Assembly: GCA_947589675.1 (NCBI GenBank)
Contig: CANQCI010000004.1
Location: forward strand, 1-59,368
From: an uncultured Bacilli bacterium
GTDB taxonomy: Bacteria > Bacillota_I > Bacilli_A > RF39 > UBA660
DNA: 59,368 nucleotides
Reading direction: 5' to 3'
The stretch's first letter is position 1, and every line of letters begins with the position of its first letter. The translations under genes and the position numbers were made by a program. The notes beneath the pieces are model-generated. The model was given only the letters and a program-made list of their open reading frames with translations. It was not told where the DNA came from and ran no database searches. Below are positions 1-59,327 of the stretch, in pieces.

Positions 1-184
1 ACGAAAGTCATGCTGAATGCACAACGAAAGTCATGCTGAATGCACAACGAAAGTCATGCTGAATGCACAACGAAAGTCATGCTGAATGCACAACGAAAGT
101 TATGCTAAATGCACAATGAAAGTTATGCTAAATGCACAATGAAAGTTATGCTAAATGCACAATGAAAGTTATGCTAAATGCACA
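1..184. repeat. Tandem array A: eight 23-bp direct repeats upstream of an AAA/DUF4143 ATPase
   Basis: Exactly eight consecutive 23-bp units fill this stretch. The unit reads ACGAAAGTCATGCTGAATGC followed by ACA. The first four are identical; the fifth changes GTCATGCTG to GTTATGCTA, and the last three also change the leading ACG to ATG, so the array decays or diverges toward the gene. The window begins inside or at the edge of the array, so more units may lie to the left. The last unit ends just before a putative -35 box. It is neither a CRISPR (no spacers) nor coding. The unit aligns with the 23-bp unit found before the related ATPase near 45.9 kb. Confidence 0.95.
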
Positions 185-191
185 ATACATA

Positions 192-222
192 TTGTACTTA
201 TCAATCCTTTATGGTATATAAT
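192..222 (+). promoter_or_regulatory. Putative promoter of the first ATPase gene
   Basis: TTGTAC is followed by a TATATAAT stretch (TATATA at 17 bp spacing, or TATAAT at 19 bp). It begins 8 bp after the last repeat unit, so a protein bound to the array would sit beside or over RNA polymerase. The ribosome binding site AGGAAG follows at 229-234. Confidence 0.5.
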
Positions 223-242
223 ATATTTAGGAAGTGATTGAA

Positions 243-1526
243 ATGGCTTTGACTAAAGAAAATTATCGCAAACGTTTAGTAGATGATGAAATAAAGGAAT
301 TGTTACAAATGTTTGGGGCAATAAGTATTGAAGGACCAAAATATTGTGGTAAAACATGGACAGCCTTAAATCATGCTAATTCTTCTGTGTTATTAACTAA
401 ATCAGATAATCCGAAATCAGATTATCAAAGGGCTTTAGTTGATAGAGAACTTATTTATACTGATAAGTTTCCAGAATTGATTGATGAATGGCAGTCAATT
501 GAACAAATATGGGATGACGTTAGGACTAAGTGTGATGAAGATGGGAAAAGTGGCAAGTTTATTTTAACAGGTTCATCAGTGCCTATTCGCCCAGAAAAAA
601 TTTTCCATTCGGGGGCAGGAAGAATTTATAAATTGAATATGTATACGATGTCCTTATTTGAATCAGGGGATTCTGAGGGAATTGTTTCTTTAAACGATTT
701 ATTTAAAAATAAAAATATTGTTGCCAATTTAAAAAATAAACCAACTATTGAAAAATTAGCTGATTTAATTGTCCGAGGTGGTTGGCCAGCCAGTTTAGAA
801 TATGAGGCCAAAAATTATTATCGATTACCCGAAAGTTATATTAATGATGTAATTGACCATGATATAAATTATGATGGAATAGTAAGAAATAAAGAAAAAA
901 TGCGAATGTTACTAAAATCATTAGCTCGCAATGAATCAAGTTTAGTAACTAATGAAAAATTAGGTAGTGATATAAAGAAAGATACTAAAGTAAAAAAATA
1001 TCAGTTAAGCAGAAATACTATAACTGATTACTTAAATGTTTTAAAAAATATTCACTTACTTCAAGACCAATTACCATATTCCTTTAAAATTCGTTCAAGT
1101 GTGCGGGTGGGGAAAACCGCAAAAAGACATTTTGTTGATCCGTCTTTAGCTTGTGCTGTTTTGGGGATAAGGCAAGAACAATTAATAAAAGATTTAGAAT
1201 TATTTGGGTTTATGTTTGAATCGTTGGTAGTAAGAGATTTAAGAATTTATATCGAATACTTAGGTGGACATATATATCATTTCCATGATAATAATACCGG
1301 TGAAGAAGTAGATATTATTTTAGAATTAAGTGATGGTACTTATGGAGCTATTGAAGTAAAATTAGGGGTTGGTAAAATAGATGAAGCAGCAATTAATTTG
1401 CAAAATTTTGCTAAAAAATCTGAGGTAAAACCCCAATTCATGGCGGTTGTAAGTGGGATGATTGATTATGCTTATAAAAGAAAAGATGGGGTTTATGTAA
1501 TTCCTATCACGGCTTTGAAACCATAA
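243..1526 (+). CDS. AAA_14/DUF4143 ATPase, subfamily 1 (paired with array A)
   Basis: Predicted ATPase of the AAA_14 plus DUF4143 architecture, about 427 residues, close to the family's usual length. A Walker A motif GPKYCGKTWT lies at about residues 31-40, a Walker B-like ELIDEW segment near residue 80 and a sensor-like FILTGSS near residue 107. The C-terminal domain ends in EEVDIILELSDG and AIEVKLG, the D...ExK pattern of a PD-(D/E)XK-like fold. I start at ATG 243 because AGGAAG sits 8 bp upstream; a GTG at 234 overlaps that site. The cellular role of this family is unknown. It is most similar to the ATPase at 45.9 kb, which is also preceded by 23-bp repeats. No other gene appears to share its transcript, and a terminator follows. 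Confidence 0.85.
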   Translation: MALTKENYRKRLVDDEIKELLQMFGAISIEGPKYCGKTWTALNHANSSVLLTKSDNPKSDYQRALVDRELIYTDKFPELIDEWQSIEQIWDDVRTKCDEDGKSGKFILTGSSVPIRPEKIFHSGAGRIYKLNMYTMSLFESGDSEGIVSLNDLFKNKNIVANLKNKPTIEKLADLIVRGGWPASLEYEAKNYYRLPESYINDVIDHDINYDGIVRNKEKMRMLLKSLARNESSLVTNEKLGSDIKKDTKVKKYQLSRNTITDYLNVLKNIHLLQDQLPYSFKIRSSVRVGKTAKRHFVDPSLACAVLGIRQEQLIKDLELFGFMFESLVVRDLRIYIEYLGGHIYHFHDNNTGEEVDIILELSDGTYGAIEVKLGVGKIDEAAINLQNFAKKSEVKPQFMAVVSGMIDYAYKRKDGVYVIPITALKP

Positions 1527-14679: not shown

Positions 14680-14684
14680 TTAAG

Positions 14685-14816
14685 TTATTCGTGCCAAAAA
14701 GGTGTAATTTTTACAAATTATTCCTATGAAAAAGGTGTAAATTTGCATAATTATTCGTGCCAAAAAGGTGTAATTTTTGTGAATTATTCCTATGAAAAAG
14801 GTGTAAATTGTGATAT
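14685..14816. repeat. Tandem array C: four 33-bp direct repeats upstream of an AAA/DUF4143 ATPase
   Basis: Units start at 14685, 14718, 14751 and 14784, exactly 33 bp apart. All share TTATTC, then a 5-bp block that alternates GTGCC, CTATG, GTGCC, CTATG, then AAAAAGGTGTAA and an AT-rich tail that differs slightly. The alternation implies that a 66-bp pair was duplicated. The array begins 5 bp after the polA stop and ends 20 bp before the ATPase start; a TGATATATT (-10-like) at 14811-14819 overlaps the end of unit 4, so the array covers the promoter region. Confidence 0.95.
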
Positions 14817-14836
14817 ATTAAGGGTAGGTGAGATAG

Positions 14837-16141
14837 ATGCAAAGAAAGATTTATAATGAATTATTAGCTTGGAAAAATGCAGATAGTAATAAACCATTGA
14901 TGGTTTTAGGGGTAAGACAAGCTGGCAAAACCTATATAATAAATGAATTTTGTCAAAAGGAATTTACCAATTATGCTTATGTTAATTTGCTCGAAAATGA
15001 AAATATTGTTAAATTATATGAAAAAAGTATTCCATCAAGTGATAAATATCTTGAATTAAAAGCTTTATTAAATCTTAATTTAGATGCTGAGGATACAGTT
15101 TTATTTATTGATGAAATTCAAGAATCGGAAAGAATAATTGCGGAATTAAAGTATTTTTGTGAGCAACATAATAAAGTAAAAATTATTTGTGCGGGTTCTT
15201 TATTAGGAATAAAGCTAAGAAGAAGTCATTTCTCTTTTCCGGTAGGGAAAGTAAAAATGATAACTTTATATCCCATGGATTTCGAAGAATTTTTAATTGC
15301 TTGTGGTGAATCTATCCTTTTAGATGTTATTAAAGATAGTTTTAATAATAATAAAAATATTTCTTTAGAATTACATACCAAAGCTCTTCATTTATATAAT
15401 GATTATTTAATCACAGGAGGTATGCCTGAGGTTGTTAAAAATTTTATAGATAATAACCGTGATTATGTAAAATGTGATTCTACAATTCTTAGTAATATAG
15501 TTGAATCTTACTTAAATGATATGAATAAATATGTTAAAAGTAATGTTGAAGCCTTAAAAATATCCAGAACTTATCAATCATTACCTAGTCAACTTTCGAA
15601 TAATTCTGCGAAGTTTCAATATGCGAAAATCAGTAAAAATGCGAAAGCTCGGGAATATGAGTCAGCCATCGATTGGTTAATTTCTAGCAACATGGTTTTA
15701 GAAGCTAAGGCGGTGAAAAAGCCTAGTATCCCTTTAGAAGGTTTTGTAGATATAAATTCTTTTAAATTATATTTAAGTGATATAGGTATTTTAAATAGTA
15801 TTTTAAAAATTCAACCCGTGGATATTATTAATGATAGGCTATCTTTATATAAAGGGGTAATTGCGGAAAATTATGTAGCTTGTGAGTTAAAAGCCCATGG
15901 ACATAATTTATATTATTGGAAAAGTGATAATACTGCGGAAATAGATTTTTTAATTCTTACTGATGAGGGAATTATTCCCATCGAAGTTAAAGCTGGAAAT
16001 AATACGAAATCAAAAAGTTTAGCGATTTATATGGAAAAATATAAACCTAAATATGCCATAAGAATAAGTACTAAAGAGTTTGGTTATAATCATGAAACAA
16101 AAATAAAATCTATTCCTTTGTATGCGACATTTTTATTATGA
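14837..16141 (+). CDS. AAA_14/DUF4143 ATPase, subfamily 2 (paired with array C)
   Basis: 434 residues. Walker A GVRQAGKTYIINEF at about 25-38, Walker B LFIDEIQESER near 93-103, sensor IICAGSLLGI, a TLYPMDFEEFL segment characteristic of the family, and a C-terminal DUF4143 with EIDFLI followed by IIPIEVKAG, a nuclease-like D...ExK pattern. Inserted between polA and mutM, genes that are usually adjacent, and equipped with its own repeat array and RBS (AGGGTAGGTGAG). Closest relative in the window is the ATPase at 39.7 kb, which has no array. Molecular role unknown for the family. Confidence 0.88.
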   Translation: MQRKIYNELLAWKNADSNKPLMVLGVRQAGKTYIINEFCQKEFTNYAYVNLLENENIVKLYEKSIPSSDKYLELKALLNLNLDAEDTVLFIDEIQESERIIAELKYFCEQHNKVKIICAGSLLGIKLRRSHFSFPVGKVKMITLYPMDFEEFLIACGESILLDVIKDSFNNNKNISLELHTKALHLYNDYLITGGMPEVVKNFIDNNRDYVKCDSTILSNIVESYLNDMNKYVKSNVEALKISRTYQSLPSQLSNNSAKFQYAKISKNAKAREYESAIDWLISSNMVLEAKAVKKPSIPLEGFVDINSFKLYLSDIGILNSILKIQPVDIINDRLSLYKGVIAENYVACELKAHGHNLYYWKSDNTAEIDFLILTDEGIIPIEVKAGNNTKSKSLAIYMEKYKPKYAIRISTKEFGYNHETKIKSIPLYATFLL

Positions 16142-16153
16142 GGAGGAAAAGTT

Positions 16154-26847: not shown

Positions 26848-27873
26848 ATGAGTGATTTAATAAAAAAAGATGAATATTATGATGATTTTTCCAAAATTAT
26901 TGAAATGATAGAAACCAGAAAAAATAATGCTTATAGAAAAGTAAATGAAGAAATGATTTTGCTTTATTTAGAAGTTGGTAAATTTTTATATGAACTAAAG
27001 GAAAAAAGCGGATATGGAGATAAAATTACAACCAAAGCAGCGGACTTCATGAAAAATAATTATCCTGCTATTAAGGGATTCACTAAAAGAAATATAGAAA
27101 GAATGATTCAATTTTATAGTACATACAAAGATGATGAGATTGCGACACCACTGGTGACGCAATTATCGTGGACAAATAATCTTCTTATTTTAAGTGGCTC
27201 TAAAACAAAAGAAGAAAGACTATTTTATTTACAATTATCAATTAAAAACAATTATTCTAAAAGAGAATTAGATAGACAGATAACTTCATCTTATTATGAA
27301 AGATATATGCTATCTGATGGTAAGCAATTACCAACTACTAGTAAAACAATTGATGAAAATGATTATCCTAACACAAGAATTTTAGATATGTATAGCTTAG
27401 AATTTTTAGATTTGCCTAATGAATTTACAGAGAAAGATTTAAAAAATGCCATTATTAAAAATTTAAAAGATTTTATATTGGAAGTGGGGAAAGATTTTAC
27501 TTTTATTGGAGATGAATATAGAGTCCAAATTGGTAATCACGATTTCTTTATCGATTTACTATTTTATAATAGAGAATTGTCTTGTTTAGTAGCATTTGAA
27601 TTAAAATTGGGAGAATTTAAAGCAGAATATTTAGGAAAAATGAATTTGTATTTAGAGGCATTAGATAGAGACGTGAAAAAATCACAGGAAAATCCTAGTG
27701 TAGGTGTTATCTTATGTAGTTCTAAGGATAAGGATGTTGTAGAATATTCATTAAGTAAAAATATGTCACAAACTTTAATATCAGAATATAAATTGAAATT
27801 AATAGATAAGAAATTATTAGAAACAAAATTAAGAGAAATATCTACTTTAGTAGAAGAAACCAAAATAGATTAA
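26848..27873 (+). CDS. DUF1016 (YhcG-like) PD-(D/E)XK nuclease-domain protein
   Basis: 341 residues with the YhcG-family layout. The N-terminal DUF1016_N domain has the family pattern KGFTKRNIERMIQFYSTY, then PLVTQLSWTNNLLIL. The C-terminal nuclease domain carries EYRVQIGNHDFFIDLLFYNR (catalytic Asp) and CLVAFELKLGEFKAEYLGKM (ExK). Members are linked to restriction systems and are widespread accessory genes. RBS AAGTGAGGAG precedes ATG. Codons for ATPLVTQ form a 25-bp near-perfect palindrome that also occurs, perfectly, in two decayed copies downstream. Confidence 0.88.
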   Translation: MSDLIKKDEYYDDFSKIIEMIETRKNNAYRKVNEEMILLYLEVGKFLYELKEKSGYGDKITTKAADFMKNNYPAIKGFTKRNIERMIQFYSTYKDDEIATPLVTQLSWTNNLLILSGSKTKEERLFYLQLSIKNNYSKRELDRQITSSYYERYMLSDGKQLPTTSKTIDENDYPNTRILDMYSLEFLDLPNEFTEKDLKNAIIKNLKDFILEVGKDFTFIGDEYRVQIGNHDFFIDLLFYNRELSCLVAFELKLGEFKAEYLGKMNLYLEALDRDVKKSQENPSVGVILCSSKDKDVVEYSLSKNMSQTLISEYKLKLIDKKLLETKLREISTLVEETKID

Positions 27874-28457: not shown

Positions 28458-29732
28458 TTATTCATCTAAACTATTTTCATTTAAAAGGAAGTGATATAAT
28501 CCCATAGTAACTATGCCATCATTATCAATTCTTGTTTTAATATTATCTTTTACAATAATTATTTTTTTAAAAGAGTCTTCTATATGTTTTAAAGATTGTT
28601 TTTCTTGATTATTTTTTTCATCACTTGTTAATTTATAGGAAGACTGAATATAATATTTTTTTAATCCTTTATTAACAATAAAATCAACTTCATAGTTAGT
28701 TCTTTCGGTTTTATTTTGGCTATTCTTAGTATAAACTTCCACAATTCCGATATCGACATTATATCTTCTGGCTAATAATTCATTATATATTATATTTTCC
28801 ATGATATATCCATCATCTATTTGCCTAAATTTTAATCTCGCATTGCGAAGCCCTATATCTTCATAATAATATTTATAGGGTGAATTAATATAATGATTAC
28901 CTTTAATGTCATATCTTTGGGCTTTATTTATTAAAAAGGCATCTTCAATATAACTAATATAACTATCGATAGTATTTTTATTTATTAGTTCTTCATTTTG
29001 GTTTTCTTTTAAATATTGGTTATTTATTATATTGGTAAGTCTTGTAGGATTAGTTAAAGAACCTATTTGGGATGATAATACATCAAGTATATCATTTAAA
29101 AGTTGTTCATTTTTGATATTTCGTCTTTCTTTTAAATCTTCTAAATAAGTTGTTTGATATAAATTTTTTAGATATTCAATTTTTTCTTCATCACTTTTAC
29201 ATTGTAAAATATAAGGTAGTCCTCCATATAAAACATAATCATTCCATGCTTCATCTTTATCCCCATTATAGGCTTCTAAATATTCTTTAAAAGTTAAAGG
29301 ATAAATGTGGATGATGTCGCCTCGTCCTCGAAACTCAGTACTGATATCACTTGATAACATTTTAGAATTACTTCCAGTTACATAAACATCAACATTATCT
29401 TTATATAAAAAACCATTTAATACGGGAACAAAATCATCAACTTTTTGAATTTCATCCAATAAAATATAGTACTTTTCATGGGTATTTTTAATTTGGCTTA
29501 AAAGATAATTATTTAAAACTGATGCTTGCCAATACTTTTTATTTTCCTCCGCATCAAGAGCTAGATAAATAATATGATTTTCATCTGTTTCATTTTCTAA
29601 AAGATATTTTCTAAATATTTTATTTAGTAAGTATGATTTTCCAGATTGATGTAAGCCTATTATTACTTTAATCATGTCATTATCTTGCTTTGCAATTAAT
29701 CTTTGTAAATAGTTATTTCTCTTAATTTCCAT
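28458..29732 (-). CDS. AAA_14/DUF4143 ATPase, third subfamily
   Basis: 424 residues from the chosen start. Walker A GLHQSGKSYLLNKIF near 26-40, Walker B YILLDEIQKVDDF near 93-105, sensor VYVTGSNSKMLSSD, the arginine-rich SDISTEFRGRGDIIHIYPLT, and a C-terminal DUF4143 region with YEVDFIVNKGLKKYYIQSSY where ExK is replaced by a less typical IQxSY, as seen in this branch. I choose ATG 29732, preceded by TAGGTG, over the GTG at 29741. A TATAAT on this strand lies at 29750-29755 and a 50-bp palindrome lies just upstream, the likely control site. Confidence 0.85.
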   Translation of the reverse strand: MEIKRNNYLQRLIAKQDNDMIKVIIGLHQSGKSYLLNKIFRKYLLENETDENHIIYLALDAEENKKYWQASVLNNYLLSQIKNTHEKYYILLDEIQKVDDFVPVLNGFLYKDNVDVYVTGSNSKMLSSDISTEFRGRGDIIHIYPLTFKEYLEAYNGDKDEAWNDYVLYGGLPYILQCKSDEEKIEYLKNLYQTTYLEDLKERRNIKNEQLLNDILDVLSSQIGSLTNPTRLTNIINNQYLKENQNEELINKNTIDSYISYIEDAFLINKAQRYDIKGNHYINSPYKYYYEDIGLRNARLKFRQIDDGYIMENIIYNELLARRYNVDIGIVEVYTKNSQNKTERTNYEVDFIVNKGLKKYYIQSSYKLTSDEKNNQEKQSLKHIEDSFKKIIIVKDNIKTRIDNDGIVTMGLYHFLLNENSLDE

Positions 29733-29776
29733 GCCTAACACCTATAACTATTATATATATTTTTTTTAAGTTAGCA

Positions 29777-29826
29777 ATTTCTATTTACCAAAAGTGTGTG
29801 CAGACACACTTTTGGTAAATAGAAAT
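29777..29826. repeat. 50-bp perfect palindrome (23-bp arms) between divergent genes
   Basis: The left arm begins ATTTCTATTTACCAAAAG and continues TGTGT; the right arm is its exact reverse complement; the spacer is GCAG. It lies between the divergent ATPase and MYG1 genes, so it is unlikely to be a terminator for either. One edge touches the possible -35 region (TTGCTA) of the ATPase gene. Arm length equals the 23-bp repeat period of arrays A and B, and the arm contains a TTCTAT...AAAAGTGT core reminiscent of array C and D units. Confidence 0.93.
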
Positions 29827-39658: not shown

Positions 39659-40951
39659 TTGTATAGAAAAATTGAAGAAGATTTAAAAGCTTGGTTAAAT
39701 GATTATAAAATGCCTTTAATGTTAGTGGGAGCAAGACAAACTGGTAAAACATATATCTTAAATAAATTTTGTCAAAATAATTTTGCCAATTATATTTATA
39801 TTAATTTAGATAAAGAGGAAAATATTCAAAAAGTTTTTGAGGAAACAATTGATCCCGATGTTATAATTGAAAAAATAGAAATTATTAAAAATGTAAATAT
39901 TAATATAGATAATACGATAATTTTTTTAGATGAAATACAAGTGAGTGAAAGAGCTATTACTTCTTTAAAATATTTTTGTGAAAGTCCTAAAAATTACCAC
40001 ATTGTTTGTGCTGGTTCGCTTTTAGGGGTGAAAATTAATCGGTTTAAGTCCTCATTCCCAGTGGGTAAAGTTCTGATTAAATATTTATATCCTATGGATT
40101 TTCAAGAATATCTTCTGGCTTTAGGAGAAGATAAATTAATTCAAGAAATAAAGAATCATTATGAAACTAATGAACCTTTAATGAAACCCATTCATGAATT
40201 AGCCCTAGATTTATATAAAAAATATTTGGTTTTAGGAGGAATGCCTACTTTAGTTAATAATTTTATTGCGAGTGACCTTAATATAGCTCATGTAAATTTT
40301 GAACTTCAAGAGCAAATTATCACAGCTTATTTAGCTGATATGAATAAGTATACTGAAAATACTGAGGGAGTAAAAAATAATCAAATTTATAACTCGATAC
40401 CTAAAGAATTAACTCGGGAAAATAATACTTTTAAATATAGTATAGTTGCTAAAGATGCTCGTAAAATTAGATATGAAAGTAGTTTAGATTGGCTTTTAGC
40501 TAGTAATATGCTCTTAAAATGTGATTTAGTAAAAAGAAATGAATCACCTTTAAAAGCCTTTGTTGACACCGATAAATTTAAATTATATTTAAGTGATGTG
40601 GGTTTACTTAGGGCTTTATCCAATCTTGATTATCGGGAAATTATTTTAGATCAAAATGAGTTATATAAAGGCGTTTTAACCGAAAATTATATAGCTTGTG
40701 AATTATATCCCCGAACCAAAGAATTATATTATTATAATTTTGATCGTTATGAAATTGATTTTTTAATCAAAATAGATGGGGATATTATTCCTATTGAAGT
40801 TAAAAGTGGAAGACGAACTAATAGTAAGAGTTTAAATGAATATATCAAGAAATATCAACCTAAATATAGTATTCGTTTATCAATGAAAAATTTTGGTTTA
40901 GAAAATAATATTAAATCAGTACCTTTATATGCGGTATTTTGTCTTAAATAG
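39659..40951 (+). CDS. AAA_14/DUF4143 ATPase, subfamily 2, without array
   Basis: 430 residues. Walker A GARQTGKTYILNKF at 25-38, Walker B IIFLDEIQVSERAI, sensor HIVCAGSLLGVKI, YLYPMDFQEYLLALGE, and DUF4143 C-terminus with YEIDFLIKIDGDIIPIEVKSG. Start is TTG, preceded by AGAGGTGA. Closely related to the ATPase between polA and mutM, but no direct repeats or palindrome is evident in the 100 bp upstream. It is followed by a phosphoesterase gene 11 bp on, so it may be part of a small operon. Confidence 0.87.
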   Translation: MYRKIEEDLKAWLNDYKMPLMLVGARQTGKTYILNKFCQNNFANYIYINLDKEENIQKVFEETIDPDVIIEKIEIIKNVNINIDNTIIFLDEIQVSERAITSLKYFCESPKNYHIVCAGSLLGVKINRFKSSFPVGKVLIKYLYPMDFQEYLLALGEDKLIQEIKNHYETNEPLMKPIHELALDLYKKYLVLGGMPTLVNNFIASDLNIAHVNFELQEQIITAYLADMNKYTENTEGVKNNQIYNSIPKELTRENNTFKYSIVAKDARKIRYESSLDWLLASNMLLKCDLVKRNESPLKAFVDTDKFKLYLSDVGLLRALSNLDYREIILDQNELYKGVLTENYIACELYPRTKELYYYNFDRYEIDFLIKIDGDIIPIEVKSGRRTNSKSLNEYIKKYQPKYSIRLSMKNFGLENNIKSVPLYAVFCLK

Positions 40952-44424: not shown

Positions 44425-45783
44425 ATGAATCAAGATATATTTAGAGCATATGATATAAGAGGAAAATACCCAAGTGAGATAAATGAACAAACCGCTTATC
44501 TTATTGGCAAAAGCTATGGCTCTTATTTACAACAAAAATATAATCAAAAAAGTTGTATTGTTAGTTGTGATAATCGACTATCTAGTCCTATGTTAGTTCT
44601 TAATTTGATTAAAGGTATTTTAGAAAGTGGTTGTAATGTAATTAATTATGGCGTAACAACAACGCCAATGAATTACTATGGACGTTATTTAAATCAAATG
44701 CCTGGTATTATGGTTACCGCTTCTCATAATCCAAAAGATGAAAATGGTTTTAAATTTTCTTTTGAAAAAATGGTTAATGCTCGGGGCGAAATGATTGAGG
44801 ATTTTAAAAACTATACTATCGCCGGGCAATTTTTAAATGGTATGGGAACGGAAACTAAAAATGATATAACTGAAAAATATATTGAGTATTTAAAATATTC
44901 AATGAAATGGGGACGTAATAAAAGAAAGGTTATTATTGACTGTGGCAATGGGGTTACTTGCTTAATTGCTCGCAAAGTCTTGGCTGGTTCATTTTGTGAT
45001 TTTGAAATAATTAATGAAGAAAATGATGGAACTTTTCCTAATCATCATCCCGATCCATCGGTAGAAAAAAATATGGAACAATTACAAAAAGCAGTTTTAA
45101 GTAAAAAAGCTGATTTTGGTGTTGCTTATGATGGTGATGGCGACCGGATTGGGATTGTCATGGAAAATGGTGAAATCATGCCTATTGAACATTTTATGGT
45201 TTTAATGATTAGAGATATGTATTATAATGTTCCAACCAAAAAGTTTTTATATGATATAAAATGTAGTAAGTGTGTAAGTGATGAAATTGCCAAATTAGGT
45301 GGCGAAGGCGTAATGTCGAGGACAGGAGCTAGCTATACGCAATTTGAAACTTTAAATCAAGGCTTACCCTTTGGGGGGGAATTATCAGGACATATTTTCT
45401 TCCGTGATCGTGATGTTGACTGTGGTTCAGCTATATATGCCACCTTAAGATTAATTGAATACATGAGTAGAAGAAGTGAAAAATTAAGTGAATTATGTGC
45501 CAATATTCCTAAGTATTATGCTACCGAAGAAATGAAGTTTCCCACTAAAACTGATGAACTTAAATTCCAAGTAGTTAACGAAATTAAAGATTTCGTTATA
45601 AAAGAAAATTACCCATATATTGATATTGATGGGGTTAGAGTAAACTTTTCTAATGGCTGGGCTTTAGTGAGAGCTAGTAACACTGGTAAAAATATAACTT
45701 TTCGGGCTGAGGCAGATTCGCCTGATAATTTAGAAATGTTAAAAAATATATTTATTCCTTTAATAAAGAAATTAAATAAATAA
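44425..45783 (+). CDS. Phosphomannomutase/phosphoglucomutase
   Basis: 452 residues of the alpha-D-phosphohexomutase family. FRAYDIRGKYP at the N-terminus, catalytic serine loop MVTASHNPKDENGFKFS, metal-binding YDGDGDRIG, sugar-binding GGELSGHIFFRD and C-terminal phosphate-binding RASNTGKNITFRAEA are all intact. It interconverts hexose 1- and 6-phosphates for envelope glycans. RBS not strong (AGTAGGCG). Followed by a repeat array 5 bp later. Confidence 0.92.
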   Translation: MNQDIFRAYDIRGKYPSEINEQTAYLIGKSYGSYLQQKYNQKSCIVSCDNRLSSPMLVLNLIKGILESGCNVINYGVTTTPMNYYGRYLNQMPGIMVTASHNPKDENGFKFSFEKMVNARGEMIEDFKNYTIAGQFLNGMGTETKNDITEKYIEYLKYSMKWGRNKRKVIIDCGNGVTCLIARKVLAGSFCDFEIINEENDGTFPNHHPDPSVEKNMEQLQKAVLSKKADFGVAYDGDGDRIGIVMENGEIMPIEHFMVLMIRDMYYNVPTKKFLYDIKCSKCVSDEIAKLGGEGVMSRTGASYTQFETLNQGLPFGGELSGHIFFRDRDVDCGSAIYATLRLIEYMSRRSEKLSELCANIPKYYATEEMKFPTKTDELKFQVVNEIKDFVIKENYPYIDIDGVRVNFSNGWALVRASNTGKNITFRAEADSPDNLEMLKNIFIPLIKKLNK

Positions 45784-45787
45784 AAAT

Positions 45788-45868
45788 GTTATCCAATGAA
45801 ATAACAAAAAGTCATCCAATAAAAACCAGAAATGTCATCCAGTGAAATAACAAAAAGTCATCCAATGA
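45788..45868. repeat. Tandem array B: 23-bp repeats (3.5 units) upstream of an AAA/DUF4143 ATPase
   Basis: Units start at 45788, 45811, 45834 and 45857, each 23 bp apart. Consensus: GTYATCCARTGAAATAACAA followed by AAA; unit 2 is divergent (AATAAAAACCAGAAAT after GTCATCC) and unit 4 ends after GTCATCCAATGA. It starts 5 bp after the phosphohexomutase stop and ends about 12 bp before the ATPase start. Read from AAC, the unit aligns with the array A unit (AACRAAA, GTCAT, AATG in the same order). Confidence 0.93.
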
Positions 45869-45879
45869 GGGGGATTAAA

Positions 45880-47157
45880 ATGGCTGTATATAAACCTAGA
45901 TTAATTGATAAAGAAATTGAAAGTAGCTTAAAAGCTTATGGAGCGTTAAATATTGTTGGAGCAAAAGGAGTGGGTAAAACTTGGACAGGAAGAAAACATA
46001 CTAAAAGTGAGTTTTTACTCATGGATTCAAGTGGCGATTATCAAAACAGACGTCTTGCTGAAACTGATATATCTTTAATTTTTGAAGGAAAATTACCAAG
46101 GTTAATTGATGAATGGTTGGAAGTTCCTGGAATTTGGGATGCCACTAGATATAAATGCGATGAAGATGGGGTAAAAGGTAAATATATTTTAACAGGGTCG
46201 ACTGTCTTACCTAAAAATAAAAAAGACATCATTAGACATTCGGGAGCAGGACGAATAAAAAAAATAAAAATGTATCCTATGAGTTTATATGAATCAGGGG
46301 ATTCATCAGGTGATGTATCCTTAAAAGATATTTATAATAATAAAGTTAAGAGTAAGAAAACTAAAGATATTAATTTAAGAGATATTATAAAATTAGTCCT
46401 AAGAGGTGGATTTCCAGGAAGTATTGATATTCCCTTTGATGAAGCTATTAAACTTCCTAAACAATATATAAAGGAAATTATAGAATTAGATATAAATAGA
46501 ATTAGTGATACTAAAAGAGACGCTCATAAAATGATGTTATTACTCAGATCTCTTTCCCAAAATGAGTCAACAACTTTATCAATTGCTAAATTAAAAAGCG
46601 ATATTCAAGGAGTAGATAATGAAGATATAGATGTTAAAACTCTTAATGAATATTTAGAAGATTTAAGTAAATTGTATTTAATAGAAAATCAATTGCCATA
46701 TAATTCTAATATTCGAAGTAGTATGCGGGTTAAACAAATGGAAAAAAGGCATTTTGTTGACCCATCGATTGCTACATCTTTACTTAATATGACTGTTGAT
46801 ATGTGTGTTAATGATTTACTTTCTTTTGGCTTCTTTTTTGAAGCCATGGTTGAAAGAGATTTAAGGATATATGCTGAGGCAAATGATTGGAATATATTTC
46901 ATTATCAAGACTATGATGGTAATGAGTTTGATGCGGTAGTGGAATTTGAAGATGGTAGTTATGCCGCATTTGAAATTAAACTGGGTGCTGGACAAATCGA
47001 GGAAGCGGCGAATAATTTAATTAGAGTTAGTAATATAATAAAAGAAAAAGGGGGAAAGCCACCAAAAAGTTTGTGCGTCATATGTGGACTTTCTAATGCG
47101 GTATATACACGAAGTGATGGAGTAATTGTTGTTCCTATTACCGCTTTAAAAGATTAA
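45880..47157 (+). CDS. AAA_14/DUF4143 ATPase, subfamily 1 (paired with array B)
   Basis: 425 residues. Walker A GAKGVGKTWTG at 27-37, PRLIDEWLEVPGIWDATRY, YILTGSTVLP, HSGAGRIKKIKMYPMSLYES, QLPYNSNIRSSMRV and KRHFVDPSIATSLL are shared almost residue for residue with the first ATPase of the window, and the C-terminus has NEFDAVVEFEDGS and AAFEIKLGAG (D...ExK). ATG 45880 follows GAGGGGG; an upstream in-frame ATG would place the start inside the array. Function unknown. It ends before a strong terminator. Confidence 0.88.
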   Translation: MAVYKPRLIDKEIESSLKAYGALNIVGAKGVGKTWTGRKHTKSEFLLMDSSGDYQNRRLAETDISLIFEGKLPRLIDEWLEVPGIWDATRYKCDEDGVKGKYILTGSTVLPKNKKDIIRHSGAGRIKKIKMYPMSLYESGDSSGDVSLKDIYNNKVKSKKTKDINLRDIIKLVLRGGFPGSIDIPFDEAIKLPKQYIKEIIELDINRISDTKRDAHKMMLLLRSLSQNESTTLSIAKLKSDIQGVDNEDIDVKTLNEYLEDLSKLYLIENQLPYNSNIRSSMRVKQMEKRHFVDPSIATSLLNMTVDMCVNDLLSFGFFFEAMVERDLRIYAEANDWNIFHYQDYDGNEFDAVVEFEDGSYAAFEIKLGAGQIEEAANNLIRVSNIIKEKGGKPPKSLCVICGLSNAVYTRSDGVIVVPITALKD

Positions 47158-55524: not shown

Positions 55525-56338
55525 AGATAAAGATATGACAAGTAGGGATGTAGTTAATAAACTTATCCCTTTATTTAATACCAAGAAAATTGGGCATACA
55601 GGCACCCTTGATCCTTTAGCAACTGGCGTACTTGTTTGTTGTATCGGTAAATATACGAAGTTAGTCGATTTAATTACCGCTTATGATAAAGAATATGTTG
55701 CCGAGATTACTTTAGGTATTATGACTGACACGGGGGATATAACTGGTAATATTATAGGTAGAAGTAATACTACTTTAACATCTAACCAAATTAAAACTTG
55801 TTTAGATAGTTTTGTTAAAACCTATGACCAAACTGTTCCTAAATATTCGGCGGTCAAAATAAAGGGTAAAAAATTATATGAATATGCTCGGGAAAATAAG
55901 CAAGTAGCATTACCAAAACGCAAAGTAACAATTTATCAAATGGAACTTTTAGATATTAGTGATAATAAAATAAAATTTAAATGTTTAGTATCGAAAGGAA
56001 CTTATATTCGTTCATTAATAGAGGATATTTGTAAGCAACTTGGGGTGTGTGGGACAATGTCTAATTTAAAGAGAACTAAACAAGGAAATTTTGCTTTAAC
56101 TAATTGTTATACTTTAAAAGATATTGAAAAGAACAATTATCAATTACTTGAAGTAGGTGATATTTTTCCTTTTCCAAAAATTGAGGTCGATGATGAAGTA
56201 GCTAAGAAAATCCAAAATGGAGCGAAAATAGCTAATAGTTATTTTATAGATGATAAAGTTATTTTTTATTATCATAATAGGCTTTTAGCAATTTATCAGA
56301 ATGATAATGATATCTTAAAATCATACGTGCAATTTTAA
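55493..56338 (+). CDS. truB: tRNA pseudouridine(55) synthase
   Basis: 281 residues. GILLINKDKDMTSRDVVNKL, KIGHTGTLDPLATGVLVCC with the catalytic Asp, KYSAVKIKGKKLYEYAR and SKGTYIRSLIEDIC are TruB motifs; a C-terminal extension of 60 residues resembles a short PUA-like part. ATG 55493 is 6 bp after AAAGGA; ATG 55499 is possible. Makes pseudouridine 55 in tRNA. Last gene of the operon. Confidence 0.95.
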   Translation: MNMDGILLINKDKDMTSRDVVNKLIPLFNTKKIGHTGTLDPLATGVLVCCIGKYTKLVDLITAYDKEYVAEITLGIMTDTGDITGNIIGRSNTTLTSNQIKTCLDSFVKTYDQTVPKYSAVKIKGKKLYEYARENKQVALPKRKVTIYQMELLDISDNKIKFKCLVSKGTYIRSLIEDICKQLGVCGTMSNLKRTKQGNFALTNCYTLKDIEKNNYQLLEVGDIFPFPKIEVDDEVAKKIQNGAKIANSYFIDDKVIFYYHNRLLAIYQNDNDILKSYVQF

Positions 56339-56356
56339 AATCATACGTGCAATTTT
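56317..56356. repeat. 20-bp tandem duplication at the truB stop
   Basis: AAAATCATACGTGCAATTTT occurs twice in a row, spanning the last codons of truB, its TAA and part of the terminator stem. Confidence 0.9.
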
Positions 56357-56370
56357 AGATTGCATTTTTT
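56348..56370 (+). terminator. Terminator of the rimP-truB operon
   Basis: TGCAAT pairs with ATTGCA around TTTAG, followed by six T. The 20-bp duplication supplies a second TGCAAT upstream that could compete for pairing. Confidence 0.8.
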
Positions 56371-56415: not shown

Positions 56416-57948
56416 ATGAAAGAAAATAATGAATTACATAAAAATAATACTATATTAATTATATTAGCTGTTTTGATTGCTCTCATAATTGTAATTGGAG
56501 CCACTTATGCGTATTTCACAGCTCAAAGAGGATCGGGTGGCAGTGCGGAAATTGATGTTGAATCAGGTACAACTGATTCACTTACTTTCAATAATGAAAG
56601 TGGAAACATTAATATTGTGGCTACCCAAGATAATTTTGGACAAGCTCATAATACCATAACTCAAAGTGCTTCGGTAAAAGCGACATTAGTTCCTAATAAT
56701 ACAACTAATACGGCAAGTGAAACTTATAATGTCTTTTTAGTAATTGAAAATAATGATTTAATTTATACCGAAAATAATAATACCCCCGAACTACTTTTAA
56801 AGGTTACTGACCCTGATAATAAAGAATATACGCAAAATGTTGATGGCTTAAAATATGTTACGGGCGTAACAGATAAAAATAGTGAAACCTATAGTGGCTA
56901 TGATATAACAATGAGTACTAACCAAGTTTATAAAATAGTTAGTGATTATGTTATTGATACCGACCAAGACCCAGTTGATCAAACTTGGCAAGTAGAAGCT
57001 TCGTTAATTAATTTAAATAAAGACCAAAATGCTAATACTGGTAAAACTTTTGAAGGTAGTATTTATATTACGACTGATGAAGAAGTTAAATTAAATGAAA
57101 TAAATAGCCTTGAAACTACCGCTAGTACGACTAGCATCACAGCAACAGCTAATATTACAAGCGGAAGTAGTGATATAGCTAAATATTATTTTGCGATAAA
57201 AGAAACAACCGAAACTCCTGAGGACTTTAAAATCAGTACAATTGCTGAGGCATTAGAACAAGATTATCAAATGACTGAGGCTGAAAGTAGTTATACTTTT
57301 AGTGAAAATATTACTGAAAATAATAACTATAAAATTTATACTTATGCGGTAGATAAAAGTGGGTACCGGAGTAATATTTATGAAACGGTAGTTACCGCCG
57401 CAGATGGGGAAATTCCTAAGGTTGAAAATGTCGATACTAGTTCTGATTTTGATAGTATTACTCTTAATTTCACTAAAGTTGAGGGAACAACTTATCGAGT
57501 TCGTTTAGATAATGGTACTTGGACAGAATTTAGTGAGGAAGAAAGTCATACCTTTAGTAATTTAGCTCTTGGTAGTGTTCATAAAGTATATGTTCAAGCT
57601 AAGAATACTGATGGCAAAGTTTCTAATGTAAAAACAATGATGGTAGCAACTACTCCTTATGCTTATCCAAGTGTATCTAACATTGAAGTAACCGAAATAA
57701 CGGCAACTGGCTTTAAAGTAAAAGCAACAGTTACCCAAGGTAGTGAAACAATTGAAAAGGTAGAATTTAAAACCGATAAAGATGATACATGGTATCAAGG
57801 TGAGATGGAAGAAGAGAGTGTATACACTTATACATTTAGTAATTTACAAGAATTAACTGATTATGTAATTACAGTTAAAGTTACTTCAACAGGTAAAGCT
57901 GGAACAGGGCAAAGTAATTCCGAAAGTGTTCAAACTCTTAGTTCATAG
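56416..57948 (+). CDS. SipW-cognate secreted protein, camelysin/TasA-like with Fn3-like repeats
   Basis: 510 residues. SipW-cognate signal VLIALIIVIGATYAYFTAQR followed by GSGGSAEIDVESGTTDSLTF, nearly the same as in the larger protein at 47.3 kb. The camelysin-like domain is followed by three Fn3-like segments (TASTTSITATANITSGSSDI; SDFDSITLNFTKVEGTTYRV; ITATGFKVKATVTQGSETIE). It lacks the terminal variable domain of its paralog. Such proteins are processed by SipW-type signal peptidases and can form matrix fibres. RBS AAAGAGGA. Followed by a very strong terminator. No sipW gene is present in the window. Confidence 0.85.
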   Translation: MKENNELHKNNTILIILAVLIALIIVIGATYAYFTAQRGSGGSAEIDVESGTTDSLTFNNESGNINIVATQDNFGQAHNTITQSASVKATLVPNNTTNTASETYNVFLVIENNDLIYTENNNTPELLLKVTDPDNKEYTQNVDGLKYVTGVTDKNSETYSGYDITMSTNQVYKIVSDYVIDTDQDPVDQTWQVEASLINLNKDQNANTGKTFEGSIYITTDEEVKLNEINSLETTASTTSITATANITSGSSDIAKYYFAIKETTETPEDFKISTIAEALEQDYQMTEAESSYTFSENITENNNYKIYTYAVDKSGYRSNIYETVVTAADGEIPKVENVDTSSDFDSITLNFTKVEGTTYRVRLDNGTWTEFSEEESHTFSNLALGSVHKVYVQAKNTDGKVSNVKTMMVATTPYAYPSVSNIEVTEITATGFKVKATVTQGSETIEKVEFKTDKDDTWYQGEMEEESVYTYTFSNLQELTDYVITVKVTSTGKAGTGQSNSESVQTLSS

Positions 57949-58753: not shown

Positions 58754-58852
58754 AAGTTTCAAAAAATGTGAATTTTAGTTTTAAAATTCTTTCTAAAAAT
58801 GTGATTTTTTGTGCTATTTTTCTTTCTAAAAATGTGATAAAGTTATTGTGAA
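58754..58852. repeat. Tandem array D: three 33-bp repeats upstream of a truncated ATPase
   Basis: Units start at 58754 (degenerate), 58787 and 58820, each 33 bp apart. Units 2 and 3 share TTCTTTCTAAAAATGTGAT; unit 1 keeps TTTC and AAAAAATGTGA. The core TTTCT...AAAAATGTG resembles the array C core (TTCCTATGAAAAAGGTGT). The array runs to within about 10 bp of the ATPase start codon. Confidence 0.9.
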
Positions 58853-58862
58853 AGTGATAAAT

Positions 58863-59327
58863 ATGGCTGAATTAAAGCGAAAAATTGATAAATTTTTAGT
58901 TGATTGGAAAAATTTAAAGAACAGAAAACCATTGATAATTAAAGGGGCAAGGCAAATTGGTAAAACAACATCAGTGGAAAAATTTGGCAAAGAAAATTAT
59001 ACATCTTTTATTGAAATAAACTTTGTTTCGATGCCCCAATATACGCAAATATTTCAAGATGGTTACACAACAGATAAAATTATTAAAAATATAAGTTTGT
59101 TAAATAGCGATTGTAAATTTATACTTGGGGAAACTCTAATATTCTTCGATGAAATGCAAGAATACCCTGATACAGCAACTTCTTTAAAGTTTTTTCATGA
59201 AGATGGTCGATTTGATGTTATTTGTTCTGGTTCATTAATGGGAATTAACTTTAATCAAATCCATTCAAATAGTGTAGGCAATAAAGAAGATTATAGGGAC
59301 TTTCCAAAAATAAAAGTTTCAATTTAA
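58863..59327 (+). pseudogene. Truncated AAA_14 ATPase (N-terminal domain only), paired with array D
   Basis: 154 residues, compared with about 430 for the family. Walker A GARQIGKTTSVEKFG at about 28-42, Walker B LIFFDEMQEYPDTATSLKFF and sensor FDVICSGSLMGINF are intact, then the sequence ends at NSVGNKEDYRDFPKIKVSI with a stop; no DUF4143 domain follows in the 41 bases left. SNSVG..EDY is the family's usual continuation point, so truncation occurs within the AAA domain's end. ATG 58863 is preferred over the upstream GTG, which lies in the array. Either a decayed gene or a free-standing ATPase remnant. Confidence 0.75.

Follow-up and report, generated by a model that had tools for sequence, protein, structure and literature searches.

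Replication initiators of the iteron and ORC/Cdc6 type bind a row of direct repeats beside their own promoter and have an AAA+/winged-helix fold. ParR-parC centromeres likewise carry upstream direct repeats whose sequence and spacing are family-specific, with specificity linked to the protein and with autoregulation (PMC9426499), and in the case of RptR, a defence locus (a restriction-modification island) is repressed via three direct repeats in its own promoter (PMC12255303). IniR, a regulator whose ATPase domain resembles SSO1545, binds a promoter and activates it (PMC5760070). PDC-S01 is a PADLOC phage-defence candidate, a DUF4143 ATPase that has not been validated (PMC12988326, PMC13356809); it is a single-gene ATPase fused to a PD-(D/E)XK domain, patchily distributed and often transferred in bacteria and archaea, and reportedly ranks fourth in frequency among prokaryotic 'defences' (PMC12988326). 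The function of this very common family is unknown.

The DUF4143 genes described here resemble these systems and also differ from them. Unlike the iteron and ORC/Cdc6 initiators, they are chromosomal single genes, present in up to 22 copies per genome, whose products have an extra PD-(D/E)XK domain and are STAND-like rather than Rep-like; unlike an iteron plasmid replicon, the copies are chromosomal cassettes between host genes, with no origin function shown. ParR is a ribbon-helix-helix adaptor working with a separate ParM ATPase, whereas the DUF4143 protein combines both in one chromosomally encoded polypeptide with a nuclease-like domain. RptR is a small homodimer, a repressor separate from the effector, and its minimal site is a 6-bp palindrome, whereas in the DUF4143 case the putative effector is itself the DNA-binding protein. 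IniR differs in being a longer protein and an activator; it has a MalT-like domain, and its DNA-binding domain is a separate one at the C-terminus. For the closest folds, the archaeal PF01637 ATPases SSO1545 (2fna) and PABY2304 (2qen), no arrays are reported in the literature searched.

The first-pass annotation of the DNA studied here knew of no description of repeat arrays coupled to such ATPases. We also found none upstream of DUF4143, COG1373 or PDC-S01 genes in the searchable literature, which leaves out preprints and most subscription journals, so that an earlier mention is not excluded. The main text of the archaeal-immunity paper on PDC-S01 does not mention tandem repeats, direct repeats or promoters.

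Results

DUF4143 loci of the window

The window is the whole stretch of DNA analysed, 59,368 nucleotides, and makes up the entire contig C4 of a 1.46-Mb genome in 60 contigs. By protein similarity, its clade A protein has its nearest named relatives in metagenome-assembled genomes labelled 'uncultured Bacilli bacterium'. Membership of the family was defined by matches to both PF13635 (DUF4143) and PF13173 (AAA_14) above curated cut-offs. Five window genes matched both profiles and a sixth, at the right contig end, matched AAA_14 only. The claim of six AAA_14/DUF4143 genes thus held in part, as five full genes and one truncated copy. Genome-wide there are 22 DUF4143 matches, some of them broken, and all-against-all comparison of the 22 proteins separated them into clades A, B and C. 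The features of the window are as follows.

1-185, plus strand: array 1, 8.0 copies of a 23-bp direct repeat with 98% matches, reaching the contig edge
Unit of array 1: A[C/T]GAAAGT[C/T]ATGCT[G/A]AATGCACA, in two variants (four distal and four proximal copies)
193-222, plus strand: sigma-70-like promoter right behind array 1, with TTGTAC (193-198), 18 bp and TATAAT (217-222), read from the sequence
243-1526, plus strand: clade A DUF4143 ATPase, 427 aa, with AAA_14, winged-helix and PD-(D/E)XK-like domains; PDC-S01
14685-14809, plus strand: array 2, 33-bp repeats with a 66-bp higher order, beginning 5 bp past the polA stop codon
14837-16141, plus strand: clade B DUF4143 ATPase, 434 aa, with its stop 12 bp ahead of the ATG of the next gene
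28458-29741, minus strand: clade C DUF4143 ATPase, 427 aa, with the nuclease ExK replaced by Q-x-[A/S]
29777-29826, minus strand: palindrome of the clade C gene, 23-bp arms and a 4-bp centre, just upstream of the gene's -35 region
39659-40951, plus strand: clade B DUF4143 ATPase, full, without a clear array
45770-45868, plus strand: array 3, 4.2 copies of a 23-bp repeat, starting where the upstream phosphoglucomutase gene ends
45880-47157, plus strand: clade A DUF4143 ATPase
58757-58838, plus strand: array 4, 2.5-3 copies of a 33-bp repeat
58848 or 58857-59327, plus strand: truncated copy of clade B-like type with the AAA_14 domain alone; 159 aa, then a stop ahead of the contig end

The four upstream arrays and the palindrome that had been claimed were all confirmed, the copy numbers listed for arrays 3 and 4 being those measured here. 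The start of the clade A gene behind array 3 was reset from 45832 to 45880 because of its ribosome-binding site and the end of the array. The contig breaks inside array 1, and eight copies are therefore not necessarily its full length. The unit of array 4 is near-identical to that of two loci in sister species (L091/L095), and we regard the truncated copy behind it as a decayed cassette that has retained its array. The further claim that no other type of gene has such an array is nearly but not strictly correct: an fn3-domain ORF (56416-57948) is preceded at 56315-56357 by a perfect tandem repeat of 2.2 x 20 bp (TTAAAATCATACGTGCAATT), the sole other strong upstream repeat in the window.

Arrays are linked to the family, with a period set by the clade

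In the window's own genome, 7 of 22 DUF4143 genes have a strong upstream repeat, compared with 2 of 253 other genes, drawn from 382 kb, that carry an upstream direct repeat of array strength (Fisher 2e-7). DUF4143 genes were then collected from 30 related genomes of the genus and class, a sample of mostly metagenome-assembled sequences, and scored for upstream repeats. Strong repeats were found at 20/28 clade A genes, every one at lag 23 or 46, and at 30/39 clade B genes, every one at lag 33 or 32, a lag shared by 17 of 18 strong arrays of clade B relatives across the class. For clades A and B together, 50/67 genes have a strong repeat against 2/253 in the background (p 4e-41). Arrays contain 2 to 8 units. 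In clade C, strong direct repeats are confined to 5/37 genes, all at lag 39, and the prevailing site is an inverted repeat: 26/37 genes score at least 13, 25 of them near the start, compared with 4/253 background genes with a comparable inverted repeat near the start. No array was visible at the clade B gene 39659-40951, at 9/39 clade B genes of the genus and class set or at four divergent clade A genes (L041, L042, L044, L045).

The same period recurs far outside the class. Eighty named clade A relatives, of which 79 were usable, were collected by protein similarity alone from Bacillota, Spirochaetota, Bacteroidota, Actinomycetota and archaea (Methanomethylophilaceae, Thermoplasmata, Methanoplasma and Methanomassiliicoccaceae). 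Strong upstream repeats were present at 64/79, with 58 at lag 23, six at lag 46 and none at any other lag, while the sequences of the units vary freely between lineages. Only 1/200 control windows at the same loci had strong repeats (p 3e-47); these windows are mostly coding, whereas the own-genome background consists of true upstream regions. Plasmid-borne clade A homologues from Collinsella, Bacteroides, Prosthecochloris, Lentilactobacillus, Actinomyces and Rhizobium gave lag 23 as the best lag in 7/7 cases, down to about 25% protein identity (Rhizobium), with some low repeat scores (Lentilactobacillus 13, Actinomyces 10). Clade B homologues of Fusobacterium, Segatella, Glaesserella and Parabacteroides showed lag 32/33, with low scores in the latter two; the copy on Bacteroides pMMCAT had no clear lag, and most clade B relatives in viral contigs lie at lag 33/32. 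Beyond the genus, 11/50 clade C relatives have a palindrome score of at least 11, compared with 1/140, and lag 39/40 is also in excess.

The first-pass annotation had proposed that the link would be refuted if repeats were equally common upstream of unrelated genes or if homologues elsewhere lacked them. Neither test refuted it, given the background count and the 64 of 79 clade A relatives with strong repeats. Taken together, these results show that the linkage between DUF4143 genes and upstream arrays is real and family-wide, and that in bacteria and archaea alike the protein clade determines the period. This provides a rule for sorting the family on the basis of DNA: a period of 23, 33 or 39/40 bp, or a palindrome.

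Clade A and B genes are numerous on plasmids and were not found in named phage isolate records. A search for phage sequences resembling array 1 gave nothing convincing, only weak 73% matches (E 2e-3) in phage coding sequence. The related candidate PDC-S27 was present in just one genome of the phylum sample.

Sites are phased with the promoter, and two tested units are private to the gene behind them

The median distance from the end of the site to the -35 hexamer is 0 bp in clade A, 1 bp in clade B and -1 bp in clade C, and in a second mode the last unit overlies the -35 to -10 region. With a simple consensus score of our own, 61-84% of DUF4143 genes reached a promoter score of at least 14, compared with 21% of background genes. 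These promoters are thus close to consensus, and the claim that arrays lie over or beside the promoter holds family-wide, with sites that abut or overlap the -35 box.

Pattern scanning of the genome with up to 3 mismatches returned eight matches to the unit of array 1 (L003), all of them inside array 1 itself, and a pattern scan with the window palindrome (L016) returned a single match. For the two units tested, the sites are therefore private to the gene behind them. A blastn-short search for copies of the array elsewhere detected only AT-rich noise. Among same-genome pairs of paralogues, 0/12 shared 6 of 7 core bases, compared with 8% of other pairs; this is the direction expected if paralogues avoid sharing a core, in a sample far too small for a conclusion.

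Core bases covary with a predicted recognition helix in clade A

Clade A units, registered without the use of protein data, have a 7-bp core at positions 2-8 between two A-rich anchors, the second of which is followed by a free spacer of about 5 bp. The core is uniform inside an array and differs between loci. In a high-confidence structure model of the clade A protein (pLDDT 91.6), residues 257-269 form a helix that leads into beta strands; we interpret the two as the recognition helix and the wing of a winged-helix domain.

Unit similarity tracks protein similarity in 89 clade A genes (Mantel, 0/1000 permutations), and the same is true of clade B. Once overall identity is partialled out, the clade A signal is clear only near residues 241-275 (partial Mantel r 0.21, p=0.0005); no random set of columns exceeded 0.148. 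The strongest base-residue couplings join position 5 to R257 (z 8.0), position 8 to N258 (7.9) and position 7 to N258 (6.8); by mutual information these pairs rank 1, 2 and 4 of all base-residue pairs. Residues of the wing also pair with the unit by mutual information, position 22 with residues 275, 279 and 290 and position 21 with residue 291. R257 goes with G5 in 23/23 cases, as against 11/62 in other proteins (p 8e-13), and D or E at 258 with G8 in 31/36, as against 7/49 (p 2e-11). As for the other residues at 258, P occurs with AA, I with AT, and N mostly with AC or TC.

At 60% non-redundancy both pairings persisted (R257-G5, p 2e-4; D/E258-G8, p 1e-3), and independent contrasts, computed on a tree from which the winged helix had been left out, gave five for and none against R257-G5 (p 0.03) and eight for and none against D/E258-G8 (p 0.004). 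Held-out plasmid genes agreed: D258 occurs with CG in B. ovatus and B. uniformis, and in Lentilactobacillus R257 occurs with G and P258 with AA. The register margin in Lentilactobacillus is small, and no reliable register was obtained for the Rhizobium and Actinomyces arrays.

Since the covariation between bases and residues is also seen in independent contrasts, the clade A ATPase very probably binds its own array, an inference made without binding data. The proposal that the ATPase recognises its own array is thus strongly supported by the clade-set period, the two private units and the clade A covariation at residues 257 and 258. In clade B no residue-base code and no winged-helix peak was found despite the overall association between unit and protein; binding there is assumed by analogy with clade A, again without binding data.

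Domains, fold and defence label of the proteins

The closest solved folds are PABY2304 (2qen) and SSO1545 (2fna), with Z 14-17 over about 260-270 residues, followed by STAND ATPases (CED-4, plant NLRs) and, for clade B, by ORC/Cdc6. At the level of sequence, no relatives were detected in the PDB. Walker motifs are conserved in all three clades. The claimed C-terminal D...ExK domain holds in clades A and B: E355, D357, E371 and K373 are present in 20/20 clade A proteins and nearly invariant in clade B, and in the window protein 243-1526 the nuclease-like motif reads D357...E371-x-K373, and the predicted recognition helix covers residues 257-269. It does not hold in clade C, in which ExK is replaced by Q-x-[A/S]. 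Nuclease activity, which in any clade is inferred from the motif, may have been lost or altered in clade C while the DNA site was kept.

PADLOC PDC-S01 models matched 4/4 window proteins scanned over their full length, with best E-values of 1e-58 to 1e-146. A role in defence is an inference from the fold and from this label; no assay of phage protection supports it.

Array and gene move together

The junction between polA and fpg, which in the window holds array 2 and its gene, measures 7-29 bp in at least eight sister species. Across the species compared (window 14680-16153; L130-L158), it is empty or filled by an unrelated insert of about 870 bp, by about 3 kb or by a DUF4143 cassette; it may be an insertion hot spot. 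Two cassettes at unrelated places in different genomes, L010 (G000:C23) and L116 (G006:C46), are 92% identical exactly from the start of the palindrome to the stop codon, whereas polA identity between species is about 75%. The flank of L116 is found on a different contig of G000. Within the genus, copies per genome range from 0 to about 20. We conclude that array and gene move between species as one unit.

Flanking direct duplications were found at 4/96 cassettes; they are 24-85 bp long, variable in length, and enclose extra DNA (L116 85 bp, L010 about 75, L103 51, L124 24). Such duplications are unusual for a transposase and possibly point to repair-type or homology-assisted insertion. Precise transposition, suggested by homology running exactly from site start to stop codon, was rejected, as the duplications vary in length and enclose extra DNA. 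The cassettes have no terminal inverted repeats, no constant target-site duplication and no matching site at the 3' end, and a profile search of the DUF4143 proteins found no transposase or recombinase domain. Locus L091 (G012:C8), considered as evidence of excision, was also rejected: comparison with L069/L095 (G014:C19) shows that its clade A gene was lost by internal deletion. An orphan 23-bp array is left there upstream of a clade B cassette.

Discussion

A proposed self-bound array at the promoter

The reading we prefer, with moderate confidence, is that of a single-gene cassette whose ATPase is bound to its own array and represses its own expression. Computed support covers linkage, clade-fixed period, cis-exclusivity (two units), promoter phasing, clade A covariation and joint horizontal movement; repression, binding, oligomer geometry and defence are inferred. 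In the cassette, a private array or palindrome and a strong promoter would precede a single gene, whose product is a STAND-like AAA+ ATPase that also has a winged-helix domain for DNA binding and a nuclease-like PD-(D/E)XK domain. The winged helix would bind the array with one protomer or dimer per unit, the period of 23 bp (A) or 33 bp (B) reflecting head-to-tail packing of protomers on DNA, and clade C would bind palindromes. Oligomerisation is itself inferred from the fold. Protein at the -35 box would repress the strong promoter, such that a potentially harmful ATPase-nuclease is held at a low, self-adjusted level, and loss of binding or an altered nucleotide state may free expression or activity. 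Divergent cores would prevent cross-regulation among the paralogues of one genome.

The first-pass annotation had offered autoregulation, replication-like nucleoprotein assembly, and mobility or immunity as functions. Of these, autoregulation fits best, given sites that adjoin or overlap the -35 box. Replication-like assembly and immunity are still possible, and mobility held only in part, as the cassette is mobile but we have no evidence that the array drives its movement. Repression is inferred from site position and promoter strength, without expression data, and the direction of regulation is not settled because activators, too, bind upstream of -35.

Alternative explanations

One objection to a simple autorepressor is that one or two operators would suffice, not up to eight, and that the nuclease domain would be superfluous. 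Possibly the array is a nucleoprotein platform on which an ATP-controlled oligomer is the functional state, as with initiators on iterons: a sensor kept at its own locus would free its nuclease upon infection, and regulation would be a by-product. The fixed 23/33-bp period with its free spacer suits protomer packing, and the 2-8 units exceed the needs of repression. In addition, the nearest folds belong to STAND and ORC/Cdc6 ATPases, which act in oligomeric form, clades A and B have kept D...ExK, and the family is the defence candidate PDC-S01 (PMC12988326). Against a platform, the sites are tightly phased with the promoter, as expected of an operator, and clade C is palindromic and without ExK, so that assembly and nuclease are not common to all clades. 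A bolder version, also possible, is that the family works only as a nucleoprotein complex on a private, travelling array, with the 23-bp, 33-bp and palindromic arrangements as templates for STAND-like oligomers and the helix-core code as a repertoire of orthogonal DNA addresses. If true, the family would represent not an ordinary autorepressor but a novel type of immune or surveillance device anchored on DNA.

We consider it unlikely that the ATPase-nuclease moves its own cassette as a mobile element, with the array serving as the element's end or recognition site. The absence of the cassette from polA-fpg in at least eight sister species, the exact extent of the L010/L116 likeness and the four flanking duplications speak for it; the lack of terminal inverted repeats, of a fixed target duplication, of a matching 3' site and of a transposase or recombinase domain speaks against it, as does the lack of ExK in clade C.

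Very unlikely is a phase-variable promoter element in which slippage alters copy number and hence expression without specific binding, although slippage could coexist with binding. Its support is that array 1 falls into two homogeneous four-unit blocks, a sign of recent block amplification, and that copy number ranges from 2 to 8; slippage explains neither one period per clade in two domains nor the base-residue covariation, and the core is kept while the spacer varies freely. Chance or mutational tandem repeats, for which the AT-richness of the genome and its many weak repeats could be cited, are all but excluded by the background and control counts (2/253 and 1/200; p 4e-41 and 3e-47) and refuted by one period across phyla in hosts as unrelated as Rhizobium and Collinsella.

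On the favoured reading of a self-bound array, the array gives a handle on the family beyond protein sequence: a predicted DNA target, the putative contact residues 257 and 258, an assembly period and a promoter. It opens the family to direct testing in binding and reporter assays, using homologues of culturable Bacteroides or Collinsella, and provides a large natural set of protein-DNA pairs with a partly readable code.

Gene neighbourhoods

Some DUF4143 genes lie close to other systems. On plasmids, the Glaesserella gene (L291) neighbours a type III restriction-modification system, the Actinomyces gene (L295) a CRISPR cas3 gene, and the gene on Bacteroides pMMCAT (L292) adjoins a HipA toxin-antitoxin pair. 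In the window, a YhcG/DUF1016 PD-(D/E)XK nuclease gene (26848-27873) lies near the clade C DUF4143 gene.
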